Assembly (NCBI GenBank): GCA_902624455.1
Contig: CACNXQ010000002.1
Span: 1 to 60,154, forward strand
Source of the DNA: an uncultured Pelagibacteraceae bacterium
Lineage (GTDB): Bacteria > Pseudomonadota > Alphaproteobacteria > Pelagibacterales > AG-422-B15
DNA length: 60,154 bases
Direction of reading: 5' to 3'
Shown: positions 16,168-20,877 of the stretch, in pieces
Layout of the letters: the number at the start of each line of letters is the position of its first letter
Position numbering within the stretch: position 1 is the first letter of the stretch
Translations under genes and position numbers: made by a program
The notes under the pieces: model-generated
Told to the model about the DNA's origin: nothing
Database searches by the model: none
Seen by the model: the letters and a program-made list of their open reading frames with translations, nothing else

Positions 16168-18537
16168 TTATAAGTTTGATAGTTTTTTTACAAAATTAAA
16201 GGCTTTTTCAATTCTCTCATTTTTATTTTTAATATTAAAATTATATACTAATGTTTGATCAGTTCTAAGTTTAATATTGTATTGTCCTTTTTGAATAAAA
16301 TCGATCAATTGATCAATTTTATCAAACTTATTATCTCTAAATTTAATTATTAGCCCACGATTGCCTAAATCGAATTTTTCTATTGATAGAAGTTTACATA
16401 AAACCCGTAATTCAGTGATTTCAATTAAATGACTTACTTCTTTTGGCAAATCTCCAAATCGTTCAAACATTTCAAGCTTTGCCAATTTTAAATCCTCTAC
16501 TGATTGTAAATATGCAAGTTTACGATAAAAATATAGTCTGGTATTTAAATTCGGAATGTAGCTTTCTGGAATTAAAACACTTAATCCAAGGTTTAATTGT
16601 GGGGACCATTCGTTATCAATATTTTTATTGTCAGTACGTAATTCGTTGATTTTGTCTTTTAAAAGCCTGTGATAAAGTTCCAAGCCAACTTCTTTTACAT
16701 GCCCTGATTGTTCGTCCCCTATTATATTGCCAGAACCTCTCATGTCTAAATCATGGCTCGCAAGATTGAAACTCGAACCTCTCGTACTAAATTTTTTCAG
16801 TATTTTTAGTCTTTTAAGCGAATTCTCTGTAATTCCGTTGATGTCATGAACAGAATAATAGCAGTACGCCTCTATATCACTACGTCCTATACGGCCTCTT
16901 AGTTGATATAATTGCGATAATCCAAATCTATCTGCATTATGAACGATCATTGTGTTAGTTTTTCTTAGATCTAATCCTGACTCTACAATTGTAGTGCACA
17001 AAAGAATTTGAAATTCATTATTGTAAAATTCAACCATCGTTCTTTTTAAATCTTTAGGTGTCATTTGACCATGAGCTATCTTAAATTTTACACCTGGTAA
17101 TTTTTCTTCAAGGAAATTTTCAATATCTTTTAAATCACTTATACGTGGACATACATAATATACTTGTCCATCTCTATTTATTTCATTCTTAATTGCTTCG
17201 ATGATATTTACATTTTTAAATTCTACTATTTCTGTATTTATAGGCTGTCTATTTAGAGGTGCAGTAGAAATAATCGATAAATCTCTTAACCCGACTAAAG
17301 ACATTTGAAGTGTTCTTGGAATAGGTGTAGCTGTTAGAGATAAAACATGAACATCACTTCTAAAGGATTTTATTTTTTCTTTTTGAGAAACACCAAAGTG
17401 TTGTTCTTCATCAATAATTAGAAGTCCTAGTTCTTTAAAATTTATTTTTTTGCTTAATAATGCATGCGTGCCCACAACAATATTAGCTTCACCACTATTA
17501 ATCATTTCAATATTTTTTTCAGCATCAGATTTATTAACCAATCTTGATAATTGACATACTTTAATTGGAAATTTCTTAAATCTTTCTACAAAATTATTGT
17601 AGTGTTGATTTGAAAGTAATGTAGTTGGAACAATAAATGCAACTTGAAAATCATTCATAGCAACATTAAATGCGGCTCTTAATGCTACTTCTGTTTTACC
17701 GTAACCGACATCACCACATATCAATCTATCCATTGGCATTCCACTATTAATATCGTTTAGTATTTCGGAAGTTGCATTAATTTGATCCTCTGTATCAACA
17801 TGATCAAACTCTCTCAAAAAATTAGAATAATGAGGTTCTTGCGTTCTAAATAAAGGTGCTTTATTAACAGATCTCTCTGCTGCGGTTTTAATAAGAACTC
17901 CCGCTATTTCGTTAATTTTATTTTTTGCTGAAGCTTTTCTATATTGCCAATGCGAACTACCAAGCTTATCTAATTCTACAAATTCATTTTTAGTTCCATA
18001 CTTACTCAATAATTCTATATTTTCTACAGGTATAAAAAGTTTATCTGAATTAAAATATTCTATTTCTACGCAATCATGATCTGTATCTAATACAGTTACA
18101 TTTTTAAGACCTAAAAATTTTCCAATGCCGTGATCGACATGGACAATCAGATCATCCACTTCAAAAGTACTAAGGTCGGTTAAGAATGTATCGGCTTTTA
18201 TTTTTCTTTTATTCTGATTGAATGTGAATTCACTGAAGGGATTAATAATTACTCTATTAATTTTATTAATCTTAGATCCATCTTTTAATTCAAAATCCTC
18301 AATCTTTTCTATTTCATTTCCATAAAGATTTATTCTTATTGGATCTTTATAGCCATTAGGAAATATGTCTATTATGTCGCCCTTAACAGAAAACTCTCCT
18401 AATTCATTAATTGTACTTACACGTACGTATCCATTTTCAGTTAACTGATTGATTAATTGATTATAGTTAGTGATTGTACCACTTTCTAAAATAATTGGAT
18501 TTCTATCACTATCTTTATTTAAAGCTGCCGAGGTCAT
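16168..18537 (-). CDS. mfd: Compact transcription-repair coupling factor (Mfd) lacking D1a, D1b and D3
   Basis: Mfd pushes stalled RNA polymerase off DNA and recruits UvrA. This one has 789 residues against about 1150 in E. coli. From memory of the E. coli protein, residues 20-100 align without gaps to D2, keeping the UvrA-contact positions as K52, R68 and Y72 (E. coli R165, R181, F185). The sequence then passes straight to the RNA-polymerase-interacting domain (VDHGIGKFLGL, from 133). D1a, D1b and D3 are missing. The translocase has Walker A GDVGYGKT (275-282) and DEEQHFG, the TRG-like part and the D7 domain (NLNTRLYFYRKLA). The ATGA overlap with sdhE fixes the start, so this is not a frameshift. 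Confidence 0.9.
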   Translation of the reverse strand: MTSAALNKDSDRNPIILESGTITNYNQLINQLTENGYVRVSTINELGEFSVKGDIIDIFPNGYKDPIRINLYGNEIEKIEDFELKDGSKINKINRVIINPFSEFTFNQNKRKIKADTFLTDLSTFEVDDLIVHVDHGIGKFLGLKNVTVLDTDHDCVEIEYFNSDKLFIPVENIELLSKYGTKNEFVELDKLGSSHWQYRKASAKNKINEIAGVLIKTAAERSVNKAPLFRTQEPHYSNFLREFDHVDTEDQINATSEILNDINSGMPMDRLICGDVGYGKTEVALRAAFNVAMNDFQVAFIVPTTLLSNQHYNNFVERFKKFPIKVCQLSRLVNKSDAEKNIEMINSGEANIVVGTHALLSKKINFKELGLLIIDEEQHFGVSQKEKIKSFRSDVHVLSLTATPIPRTLQMSLVGLRDLSIISTAPLNRQPINTEIVEFKNVNIIEAIKNEINRDGQVYYVCPRISDLKDIENFLEEKLPGVKFKIAHGQMTPKDLKRTMVEFYNNEFQILLCTTIVESGLDLRKTNTMIVHNADRFGLSQLYQLRGRIGRSDIEAYCYYSVHDINGITENSLKRLKILKKFSTRGSSFNLASHDLDMRGSGNIIGDEQSGHVKEVGLELYHRLLKDKINELRTDNKNIDNEWSPQLNLGLSVLIPESYIPNLNTRLYFYRKLAYLQSVEDLKLAKLEMFERFGDLPKEVSHLIEITELRVLCKLLSIEKFDLGNRGLIIKFRDNKFDKIDQLIDFIQKGQYNIKLRTDQTLVYNFNIKNKNERIEKAFNFVKKLSNL

Positions 18538-18791
18538 CCTAGGGTAGAATCTTTAAGCAAAATCATGACTCTATTTTGTAATTTTTCTGGAATTTCACTC
18601 TTACCTAAAGCATATTGATAGATATCTCTATCATCTAACTCTAAAATCATTTCAAAAAGATTAAGTTCTTCTTCATTAAATAAATCAATATATTTAGAAG
18701 CAAATTTACCGAGTAAAATGTCCATTTCTTTAGAGCCTCTATGATTTGATTTGTAAATCAGTTTCTTTACGTAAGTTTGTAAATCGTTCAT
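18534..18791 (-). CDS. sdhE: SdhE-type FAD assembly factor
   Basis: An 85-residue helical protein of the SdhE/Sdh5 (DUF339) family, which promotes covalent attachment of FAD to succinate dehydrogenase SdhA. The RGxxExD motif is clear (R18-G-S-K-E-M-D24), followed by LFEMILELDDRDIYQYALG typical of the family. It overlaps mfd by 4 bp (ATGA) and is divergent from recG, with 28 bp between the starts. The sdhE-mfd pairing is common in alphaproteobacteria. Confidence 0.93.
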   Translation of the reverse strand: MNDLQTYVKKLIYKSNHRGSKEMDILLGKFASKYIDLFNEEELNLFEMILELDDRDIYQYALGKSEIPEKLQNRVMILLKDSTLG

Positions 18792-18819: not shown

Positions 18820-20877
18820 ATGCGACCAAAAATTTTATATAAATTATTTTCTAATTTAGAGACGATTAAAGGCATCGGTCCCAAAAATGCAAAATTAATA
18901 GAGAGGCTGTGTGGTAAGTATCTTCTTGATTTAATATTACATAGACCCATAGCGTATATAGATAGACGCAATAGTCCAAAAATCAAAGATTTATCAAATA
19001 ATAGCATTGTCACACTTATTCTCAAAGTTGATGGCCATACACCCTCATTTAATAAAAGAATGCCGTATAAAATTACCTGTTCGGACGATACAGGACAATT
19101 AAATATTGTTTATTTTAATTTAAGAGGCCCCTATTTAAAAAAGATGTTTCCAATAGGATCCAAAAAAGTTGTAAGTGGAAAAGTTGAGGAATTTAATGGC
19201 ATTTTTCAAATGACACATCCTCAGCATATCGCAGATGAAAGTAATTTAGATAGCGTTAAAAAAATTGAGTGTGTATATCCTTTAACGGCAGGTATTTCGT
19301 CAAAAATTATTCAAAAATCTATTAATAGCTCACTTGCTATTATAGATGACTTGCCTGAATGGATTCCAAATGACTATTTACAAAAAAATAATTGGACCAG
19401 TTGGAAAAAATCAATTTATGAAATGCACAATCCTAATGAACTAAAGGAAGATAAAGAGGATATTTATTTAAATAGACTAGTTTTTGATGAATTATTGTCA
19501 CAACAACTAACAGTAAGACTAATTAAAAATAAAATAAGTAAATTAAAAGGCAACACTATAAAACCAAATGGCTCATTGCTTGAACAGTTAAAAAGTCACT
19601 TATCTTTTGAATTAACTGATGATCAAAACCAAGCAATAAAAGAAATATCTAAGGATCAATCTTCGCCAAACAAAATGTTAAGACTTATACAAGGTGATGT
19701 AGGTAGTGGAAAAACTATAGTAGCCCTTCACAGCATGATTCAATGTGCAGAAAATTCTAAAAAATCTATTTTAATGGCACCAACTGAAATACTCGCGGAA
19801 CAACATTACAATACAATTAAGTTATTTGCAGAGAAATTGAAATTATCATGCGCTTTAATAACCGCATCAAATAAAAAAAATCATAATTACGAGTCTGATA
19901 TTTTAATTGGAACGCATGCCTTGTTTCAAGATAAGGTCTCTATAGATAATATTGGTTTAATTGTAATTGATGAGCAACATAGATTTGGAGTGCATCAAAG
20001 AATTTTGTTAAATGAAAAAGCTGGGAATGAATGTGATATCTTACTGATGACAGCTACCCCTATCCCAAGAACTTTAGAATTAGCATCTTATGGCGATATG
20101 GATATAACTAAAATCGTGCAAAAACCAAAGAATAGAAAACCAATTATAACTAAATCAATTAATCTGAACAAAATTGAATCTTTAAAGGAGGCTTTAACTA
20201 AAAAACTCAAACAACAAGAAAAAATTTACTGGGTATGTCCGTTGGTTGATGAGTCAGACAAGATGGATTTACAATCTGTTAATCAAAGAGTTTTAGACAT
20301 ACAAAAATACTACAAGGATTTTAATGTTGAAATGGTTCATGGTCAGATGAAACAAGAAGAAAAAAATAAAATCATGGATAATTTTAAAAGCTTTAAAACT
20401 CAAATTCTTGTTGCTACCTCTGTAATTGAAGTGGGTATTGACGATCCTGATGCAACAGTAATAATAATAGAAAATTCTGAACGATTTGGATTATCACAAT
20501 TGCATCAATTAAGAGGAAGGGTTGGTAGAGGCACAAAGCAATCTACTTGCATACTATTATTTGATGGCCCGCTCACAGAAAATGCAAAAAAAAGAATAAA
20601 TGTTATGAAAGAAACTAACGACGGCTTTAAAATTGCAGAAGAGGATCTTAGTATAAGAGGTGCTGGAGAAATTTTAGGAACACGACAAAGTGGACTTCCC
20701 AATTTTAGATTAACAGATTTAAATGTTCACAAATCGCTGATGGCGCAAGCCCGTGAAATGGCTATCAAAATAGTTGATAAGGACCCAGAGTTATCGTCAG
20801 ATCAAGGTAAATCTCTTAGACTTTTACTGCACCTCTTTAATAATCAAGTTGCAATTGATTATTTGAAATCAGGGTAA
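18820..20877 (+). CDS. recG: ATP-dependent DNA helicase RecG
   Basis: RecG regresses stalled replication forks and processes branched DNA. The 685-residue protein has an N-terminal wedge/OB domain (about 60-150), the helicase core with Walker A GDVGSGKT near residue 292, the DEQH box (VIDEQHRFGVHQR), motif III TATPIPRTLE, motif VI QLRGRVGRG and the TRG-like region EEDLSIRGAGEILGTRQSG. The length and order are normal. It is divergent from sdhE-mfd, the usual alphaproteobacterial context, and converges on the DUF502 gene without a gap. Confidence 0.96.
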   Translation: MRPKILYKLFSNLETIKGIGPKNAKLIERLCGKYLLDLILHRPIAYIDRRNSPKIKDLSNNSIVTLILKVDGHTPSFNKRMPYKITCSDDTGQLNIVYFNLRGPYLKKMFPIGSKKVVSGKVEEFNGIFQMTHPQHIADESNLDSVKKIECVYPLTAGISSKIIQKSINSSLAIIDDLPEWIPNDYLQKNNWTSWKKSIYEMHNPNELKEDKEDIYLNRLVFDELLSQQLTVRLIKNKISKLKGNTIKPNGSLLEQLKSHLSFELTDDQNQAIKEISKDQSSPNKMLRLIQGDVGSGKTIVALHSMIQCAENSKKSILMAPTEILAEQHYNTIKLFAEKLKLSCALITASNKKNHNYESDILIGTHALFQDKVSIDNIGLIVIDEQHRFGVHQRILLNEKAGNECDILLMTATPIPRTLELASYGDMDITKIVQKPKNRKPIITKSINLNKIESLKEALTKKLKQQEKIYWVCPLVDESDKMDLQSVNQRVLDIQKYYKDFNVEMVHGQMKQEEKNKIMDNFKSFKTQILVATSVIEVGIDDPDATVIIIENSERFGLSQLHQLRGRVGRGTKQSTCILLFDGPLTENAKKRINVMKETNDGFKIAEEDLSIRGAGEILGTRQSGLPNFRLTDLNVHKSLMAQAREMAIKIVDKDPELSSDQGKSLRLLLHLFNNQVAIDYLKSG

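Follow-up and report, generated by a model that had tools for sequence, protein, structure and literature searches.

The E. coli Mfd (TRCF; PDB 2EYQ, 6X26) is the reference for transcription-repair coupling factors. The residues of its D2 domain that face UvrA and have been tested by mutation are R165, R181 and F185, and residues E1045, D1048 and R1049 of D7 hold D2 and restrain the motor (PMC3025350). Mutation of D2 or deletion of the UvrB homology module abolishes the rate enhancement of transcription-coupled repair (TCR), whereas this enhancement is kept when the D2:D7 lock is freed (PMC3025350). The delta-BHM protein, a laboratory deletion of D1a, D2 and D1b, has a deregulated motor and does not give any TCR rate enhancement (PMC3025350). 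In the full-length protein, D1-D3 blocks a loading step and must swing away on the 25-residue D3-D4 linker (PMC7864632). D3 itself was termed non-conserved and lineage-specific (PMC7864632).

The window, i.e. the whole stretch of 60,154 nucleotides analyzed here (contig CACNXQ010000002.1 of assembly GCA_902624455.1, an uncultured Pelagibacteraceae bacterium; GTDB lineage Pelagibacterales, AG-422-B15), carries a gene encoding an Mfd with the same order of D2, RNA-polymerase-interacting domain (RID), relay helix, motor and D7 as E. coli Mfd but devoid of D1a, D1b and D3. The features of this locus are the following:

16168..18537, minus strand: short mfd gene, 789 aa, whole CDS including the stop (ORF, TIGR00580, Pfam)
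18496..18537, minus strand: N-terminal tail (residues 1-14), disordered and under weak constraint (pLDDT <50 at 1-11; dN/dS 0.44)
18241..18495, minus strand: D2, putative UvrA-docking domain, residues 15-99 (gapless versus E. coli 128-212; AF2; superposition on 4dfc_A; dN/dS)
18382..18384, minus strand: K52, equivalent of E. coli R165 (UvrA/D7 contact) (alignment)
18334..18336, minus strand: R68, equivalent of E. coli R181 (alignment)
18322..18324, minus strand: Y72, equivalent of E. coli F185 (alignment)
18166..18240, minus strand: D2-RID linker, residues 100-124, which replaces D1b and D3 and matches the D3-D4 linker (pLDDT; alignment jump from 221 to 460; dN/dS)
17953..18165, minus strand: D4/RID, residues 125-195 (Pfam CarD_TRCF_RID, 63.2 bits; alignment)
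17872..17952, minus strand: relay helix, residues 196-222 (single long predicted helix 195-223; gapless alignment)
16801..17871, minus strand: D5-D6 SF2 translocase motor, residues 223-579 (Pfam DEAD and Helicase_C; motor residues kept)
16606..16800, minus strand: TRG/hook region between D6 and D7, residues 580-644 (alignment; R953 and Q963 equivalents; dN/dS 0.010)
16171..16605, minus strand: D7, residues 645-789 (Pfam TRCF, 82.9 bits; dN/dS 0.060)
16456-16473, minus strand: D2-facing cluster of D7, E689, E692, R693 and F694 (alignment)
18534..18791, minus strand: sdhE, upstream of mfd, ATGA overlap (Pfam Sdh5, 80.1 bits; sequence)
18820..20877, plus strand: recG, divergent neighbour (ORF; locus comparison)

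Domain content of the short Mfd

The ORF is real and its coding strand, which the original prediction had not given, is the minus strand (63 stops interrupt the plus-strand translation of the same interval). Since the stop-to-stop frame spans only 794 residues, the N terminus cannot be extended upstream, and a base-by-base check confirmed that the ATG overlaps the sdhE stop as ATGA. The Pfam domains follow each other in the order UvrB_inter (PF17757, 77.3 bits, residues 16-104), CarD_TRCF_RID (PF02559, 125-180), which directly precedes the motor, DEAD (252-411), Helicase_C (447-553) and TRCF (PF03461, 651-743). The protein scores 880.8 bits against the NCBIfam model TIGR00580 (mfd) and 826 bits in the genome search, for a curated cut-off of 800 bits. 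Judged by TIGR00580, by the gene order and by the motor/D7 tree (see below), it is an orthologue of Mfd, which we file as an Mfd variant because D1a and D1b, which it lacks, are outside the curated score definition; the absence of D3 is not diagnostic since this domain is described as lineage-specific (PMC7864632). Two other assignments were rejected: (i) RecG, since TIGR00643 gives 381 bits for a cut-off of 659 and a separate recG adjoins, and (ii) UvrB, since only D2 matches (59-69 bits versus 743-750) and a separate UvrB (687 aa) is present.

Residues 15-108 align without any gap to residues 128-221 of E. coli Mfd and residues 108-786 to 460-1142, leaving E. coli residues 222-459 without counterpart. 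In an alignment of 44 sequences, the retained domains are almost entirely filled (86/86 positions for D2, 75/76 for RID, 205/205 for D5, 152/152 for D6 and 149/152 for D7), whereas at most 13/101 and 10/137 positions are filled for D1a and D1b, with 0-2% identity, and 0/105 for D3. The original prediction, made from the sequence alone, of a gapless D2 block and of a loss of D1a, D1b and D3 amounting to about 350 residues is thus borne out, the actual difference being 359 aa. It had also proposed that D2 joins RID directly; the two domains are indeed adjacent, but a flexible 25-residue linker (residues 100-124), corresponding to the E. coli D3-D4 linker, lies between them. The protein begins about 14 residues ahead of D2, and the joint lies, on its RID side, within the D3-D4 linker. 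Both deletions therefore end at domain boundaries, a point that the prediction had proposed to check.

The motor keeps the equivalents of E. coli K634 (Walker A), T710, H842, T868 and R929, and the equivalents of the TRG motif residues R953 and Q963 are also kept, as in a RecG-like SF2 motor; these motor and TRG residues are common to E. coli Mfd and the short Mfd. A hydrophobic residue occupies the position of E. coli L499 in RID. At the position of E. coli F599 (motif-Q aromatic; window region 17841-17843), the window protein and genus g8 of the family have H, the remaining family members shown have F, and full-length alphaproteobacterial Mfds have F or Y. The H842 position is N in one genus of the family.

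Distribution, descent and selection

When 298 genomes of the order were scored with TIGR00580, 20 of them passed the cut-off, all in the family of the window; 18 of their frames are 789-804 aa long, one reaches 891 aa (fusion with sdhE) and one (727 aa) runs off a contig end. A separate genome scan, in which the loci were found with an alignment of the N-terminal part (a single-protein query found none), identified about 36 family loci plus one frameshifted locus in genomes that include Pelagibacteraceae bacterium AG-422-N09, Pelagibacteraceae bacterium AG-422-B15 isolate FRAM18_bin072 and Candidatus Pelagibacterales bacterium. These names place the window in a family of small-genome marine bacteria related to SAR11. 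The short form is found in all 36 full-length family proteins examined, one of them fused in frame to SdhE; family frames span 788-804 aa, except for this 891-aa fusion, one frame broken into 449 + 356 aa and one cut by a contig end. Three genus-level groups carry the short Mfd, with 59-71% identity to the window protein, and relatives from the same genus have the same short frame. The sdhE-mfd-recG order is kept across the family. The family genomes without an mfd match are also without the neighbouring sdhE, so that this region is unassembled in them. A tree built on the motor and D7 groups the short proteins in a single clade of single origin; the deeper placement of this clade is uncertain because of the long branches of the tree.

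These data bear on the possibility that the short frame results from a local deletion, from misassembly or from the splitting of the gene into two parts, an explanation that would have been favoured by close relatives carrying a full-length gene at this locus. No such relative was found: the assembled loci are all short in the three genus-level groups, i.e. in many independently assembled genomes, and sdhE overlaps the mfd start codon. Furthermore, a profile derived from the N-terminal module of complete Mfds matches only the D2 of the short Mfd and UvrB in the genome; D1 and D3 are therefore not encoded apart, which rules out a split gene. An artefact of any of these kinds is considered refuted.

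Two loci deviate from the common frame. In L017/L113 (G026, AG-426-I21), sdhE and the short mfd form a single 891-aa frame, possibly a natural SdhE-Mfd fusion or the result of a lost stop codon. In L123 (AG-404-N21, G027:C14), the short mfd is split into frames of 449 and 356 aa, either by a frameshift or by a sequencing error.

The dN/dS ratios, pooled over 117 close pairs of the 36 family genes, are 0.045 for D2, 0.014 for the linker, 0.037 for RID, 0.023 for D5, 0.031 for D6, 0.010 for the D6-D7 connection and 0.060 for D7, compared to 0.44 for the 14-residue N-terminal tail; these figures are descriptive since close pairs share branches and are not independent. As estimated from these sequences, D2 and the remaining domains are under purifying selection.

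The better-known SAR11 sister family seems, from the searches made here, to have lost Mfd altogether. Among the 298 genomes of the order, none from this family reaches the TIGR00580 cut-off, and none of 11 single-contig sister-family genomes reaches the cut-off of 25 for PF03461 (D7), the best weak scores being 12-14 bits, whereas HIMB59 and the four genomes tested from the family of the window all contain PF03461. The sister-family genomes and loci considered (G036-G043, G045, G048, G147; L092-L096, L032, L033) include those that we take to be HTCC1062, HTCC7211, HIMB5 and IMCC9063; G336, from outside this family, is presumably HIMB59. In this family, sdhE and recG are still adjacent, without mfd between them, and UvrA and UvrC are present in the genomes tested. 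A literature search, mostly outside subscription papers, found no discussion of Mfd in Pelagibacter. In the genome that we take to be IMCC9063 (G147:C1:642122-643857), a TAA interrupts uvrC.

UvrD also varies in length. In G041, G042, G048 and G336 it is 678-682 aa long, with a match ending near position 640 of 715. Two genera of the sister family (g2 and g5) and the family of the window have a UvrD of 742-755 aa. The UvrD of the Pelagibacter genus proper ends near model position 640, where E. coli UvrD continues into an RNAP-binding Tudor domain, the topic of PMC7585439. From this comparison, the RNAP-binding C-terminal extension appears to be missing from the short UvrDs.

The apparent absence of Mfd from the sister family, together with the relative whose gene is frameshifted into 449 + 356 aa, could indicate that the short mfd is itself a decaying gene with little function left and heading for loss. 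However, the strong purifying selection over every domain, the constant length and the retention of the sampled motor residues down to 59% identity (except at the H842 and F599 positions) make this very improbable.

Natural reductions of Mfd were also found in other lineages. Almost all Mfds sampled in the class and phylum are full length, mostly 1100-1300 aa, and other reduced N termini belong to HIMB59 (1011 aa), G382 (995 aa), Thermus (978 aa) and G423 (778 aa). The Mfd of Thermus thermophilus (PDB 6M6A) resembles the window protein in being naturally short and in having RID, motor and D7. Its N-terminal part nevertheless comprises about 300 residues (compared to about 124 here), since the segment that begins at residue 110 of the window protein aligns with it from about residue 304. 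HIMB59 (G336, L089) is likewise a small-genome marine alphaproteobacterium whose Mfd has a reduced N-terminal module; R165, R181, F185 and the D7 cluster are present, but in this protein D1a is largely retained and some 160 residues separate D2 from RID, and the UvrD of HIMB59 appears devoid of the C-terminal extension. Its Mfd would represent an intermediate reduction, with a shortened D2-RID stretch. The alphaproteobacterial G423 Mfd (L085, G423:C6) consists of D3, RID, motor and D7, without D1 or D2 and with no D2 upstream within the locus; it resembles delta-BHM and is a different natural reduction, without UvrA dock. The delta-BHM protein shares with the short Mfd the absence of D1a and D1b, but it lacks D2 and keeps D3, whereas the short Mfd keeps D2 and lacks D3.

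No second family with the D2-linker-RID form appears among the matches listed for the samples of the class (143 genomes) and of the phylum (159 genomes). The Mfd of L164 (Desulfobacterales, 927 aa) resembles a D2-RID fusion in one BLAST segment, but this is a chance match over D3, in a record that contains masked bases. Of the other short frames in the class, those of G380 and G409 run off contig ends and that of G404 lies at a contig end. The D2-linker-RID form thus appears, within the sampled genomes of class and phylum, to be specific to the window's family; it may exist elsewhere, since these samples are thin and confined to one phylum.

D2 as probable UvrA dock and possible partner of D7

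K52, R68 and Y72, which had been placed at UvrA-contact positions, align with E. coli R165, R181 and F185. These positions are K, R and F/Y in 36/36 family proteins and R, R and F in 20/20 full-length alphaproteobacterial Mfds. The K found throughout the family in place of R165, invariant in these 20 proteins, is a point against the reading as coupling factor proposed below. K also occupies this position in 11/19 full-length Mfds of another set, and R/K swaps are tolerated at these positions since the UvrB of the same genome reads R-K-F.

When folded alone, D2 has an AF2 pLDDT of 91-96 over most of the domain, and its structure matches have Z scores of 15.6-17. All 85 residues of the model superpose at 1.1 A on 4dfc_A ('Core UvrA/TRCF complex'), the isolated E. 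coli D2 crystallised with UvrA. A further superposition, over 93 residues at 1.9 A, is obtained with the UvrB domain of 3FPN (crystal of the UvrA-UvrB interaction). D2 is, as modelled, a self-standing fold. It has the same fold and extent as the isolated D2 of PDB 4DFC; the latter is an engineered fragment, whereas the D2 of the short Mfd is the natural sole remnant of the UvrB homology module. UvrA, UvrB, UvrC and a UvrD are present, and the UvrA of the window's family keeps R216 and E222, the residues altered in E. coli UvrA to break the interaction with UvrB (PMC3025350). The purifying selection on D2, the constancy of the three positions, the superposition on 4DFC and these UvrA residues together make the minimal docking module suggested by the original prediction well, if indirectly, supported by sequence and model, although D2 could be retained for a reason other than UvrA.

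One such reason would be that the protein is a translocase that only removes polymerase, in which D2 has been kept as a lock that binds D7 and restrains the motor rather than as a UvrA dock. Indeed, the same surface of E. coli D2 contacts D7, and breaking either side raises the ATPase activity (PMC3025350). The D7 cluster (positions of E1045, D1048, R1049 and F1050) is E-D-R-F/Y in 20/20 full-length alphaproteobacterial Mfds and chemically similar, E-E-R-F, in the genus of the window. However, it is altered in two other genera of the family, to E-(D/V)-T-F and D-N-Q-Y, whereas the D2 triad K-R-F, and thus the UvrA-facing side, is unchanged in all of them, and UvrA, UvrB and UvrC are all present. 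We consider a role restricted to polymerase removal unlikely. With these residues in D7, the D2-D7 clamp that the original prediction thought might still form is possible in the window's genus and doubtful in the two others.

The model of the 789 residues has a mean pLDDT of 79, with good values within domains, and a pTM of 0.64, so that the placement of D2 relative to RID and D7 is not fixed. The pLDDT is below 50 at residues 1-11, 103-117 and 119-122, the 103-122 stretch being mostly of low confidence. Comparisons with solved Mfd states gave long alignments at 5-32 A rmsd without a clear position for D2; the alignment with E. coli Mfd spans its residues 126-1145, with an rmsd of about 10 A over 747 residues for 2eyq_A. 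Besides the three missing domains, E. coli Mfd differs by R165 (K here) and D1048 (E here). Whatever the position of D2, the contacts that D1 and D3 make with the motor in the apo structure cannot exist in the short Mfd.

A putative minimal coupling factor

Taken as a whole, the analysis points to a true, vertically inherited mfd encoding a minimal transcription-repair coupling factor, most likely working, which would have retained UvrA docking and lost most of the N-terminal restraint; we give this reading a probability of about 0.72. The ancestor of the family would have lost D1a, D1b and D3. By analogy with E. coli, (i) RID would bind the beta protrusion of RNAP, (ii) the D5-D6 motor would walk on upstream DNA and push the stalled RNAP off, (iii) D2, on a 25-residue leash from RID rather than within a rigid UvrB-like module, would recruit UvrA to the lesion, and (iv) without D1 and D3 the N-terminal restraint would be lifted for the most part, the only remaining lock being a D2-D7 contact that is weak at best. 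Since a linker of equal length directly carries D2, the mass that blocks loading in E. coli would be gone while the UvrA dock would remain on the same leash. The short Mfd keeps the part that the lock and module tests in E. coli point to as relevant for coupling.

More tentatively, the short Mfd could be a naturally unlocked coupling factor, in which D1 and D3 are gone and the D7 side of the lock is drifting, the motor would be unchecked by the N terminus, and coupling would come down to a tethered D2 that keeps UvrA beside RNAP. It could then represent one stage in a stepwise dismantling of TCR in ocean bacteria, from HIMB59 (reduced) through the family of the window (minimal) to the Pelagibacteraceae (absent); this scenario is possible rather than probable. 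In the deletions of E. coli Mfd made in the cited work, D2 was removed with its neighbours or D7 was removed. In the short Mfd, the UvrA dock is naturally separated from D1 and D3, which opens a direct test of which N-terminal parts of Mfd serve coupling and which serve restraint only.
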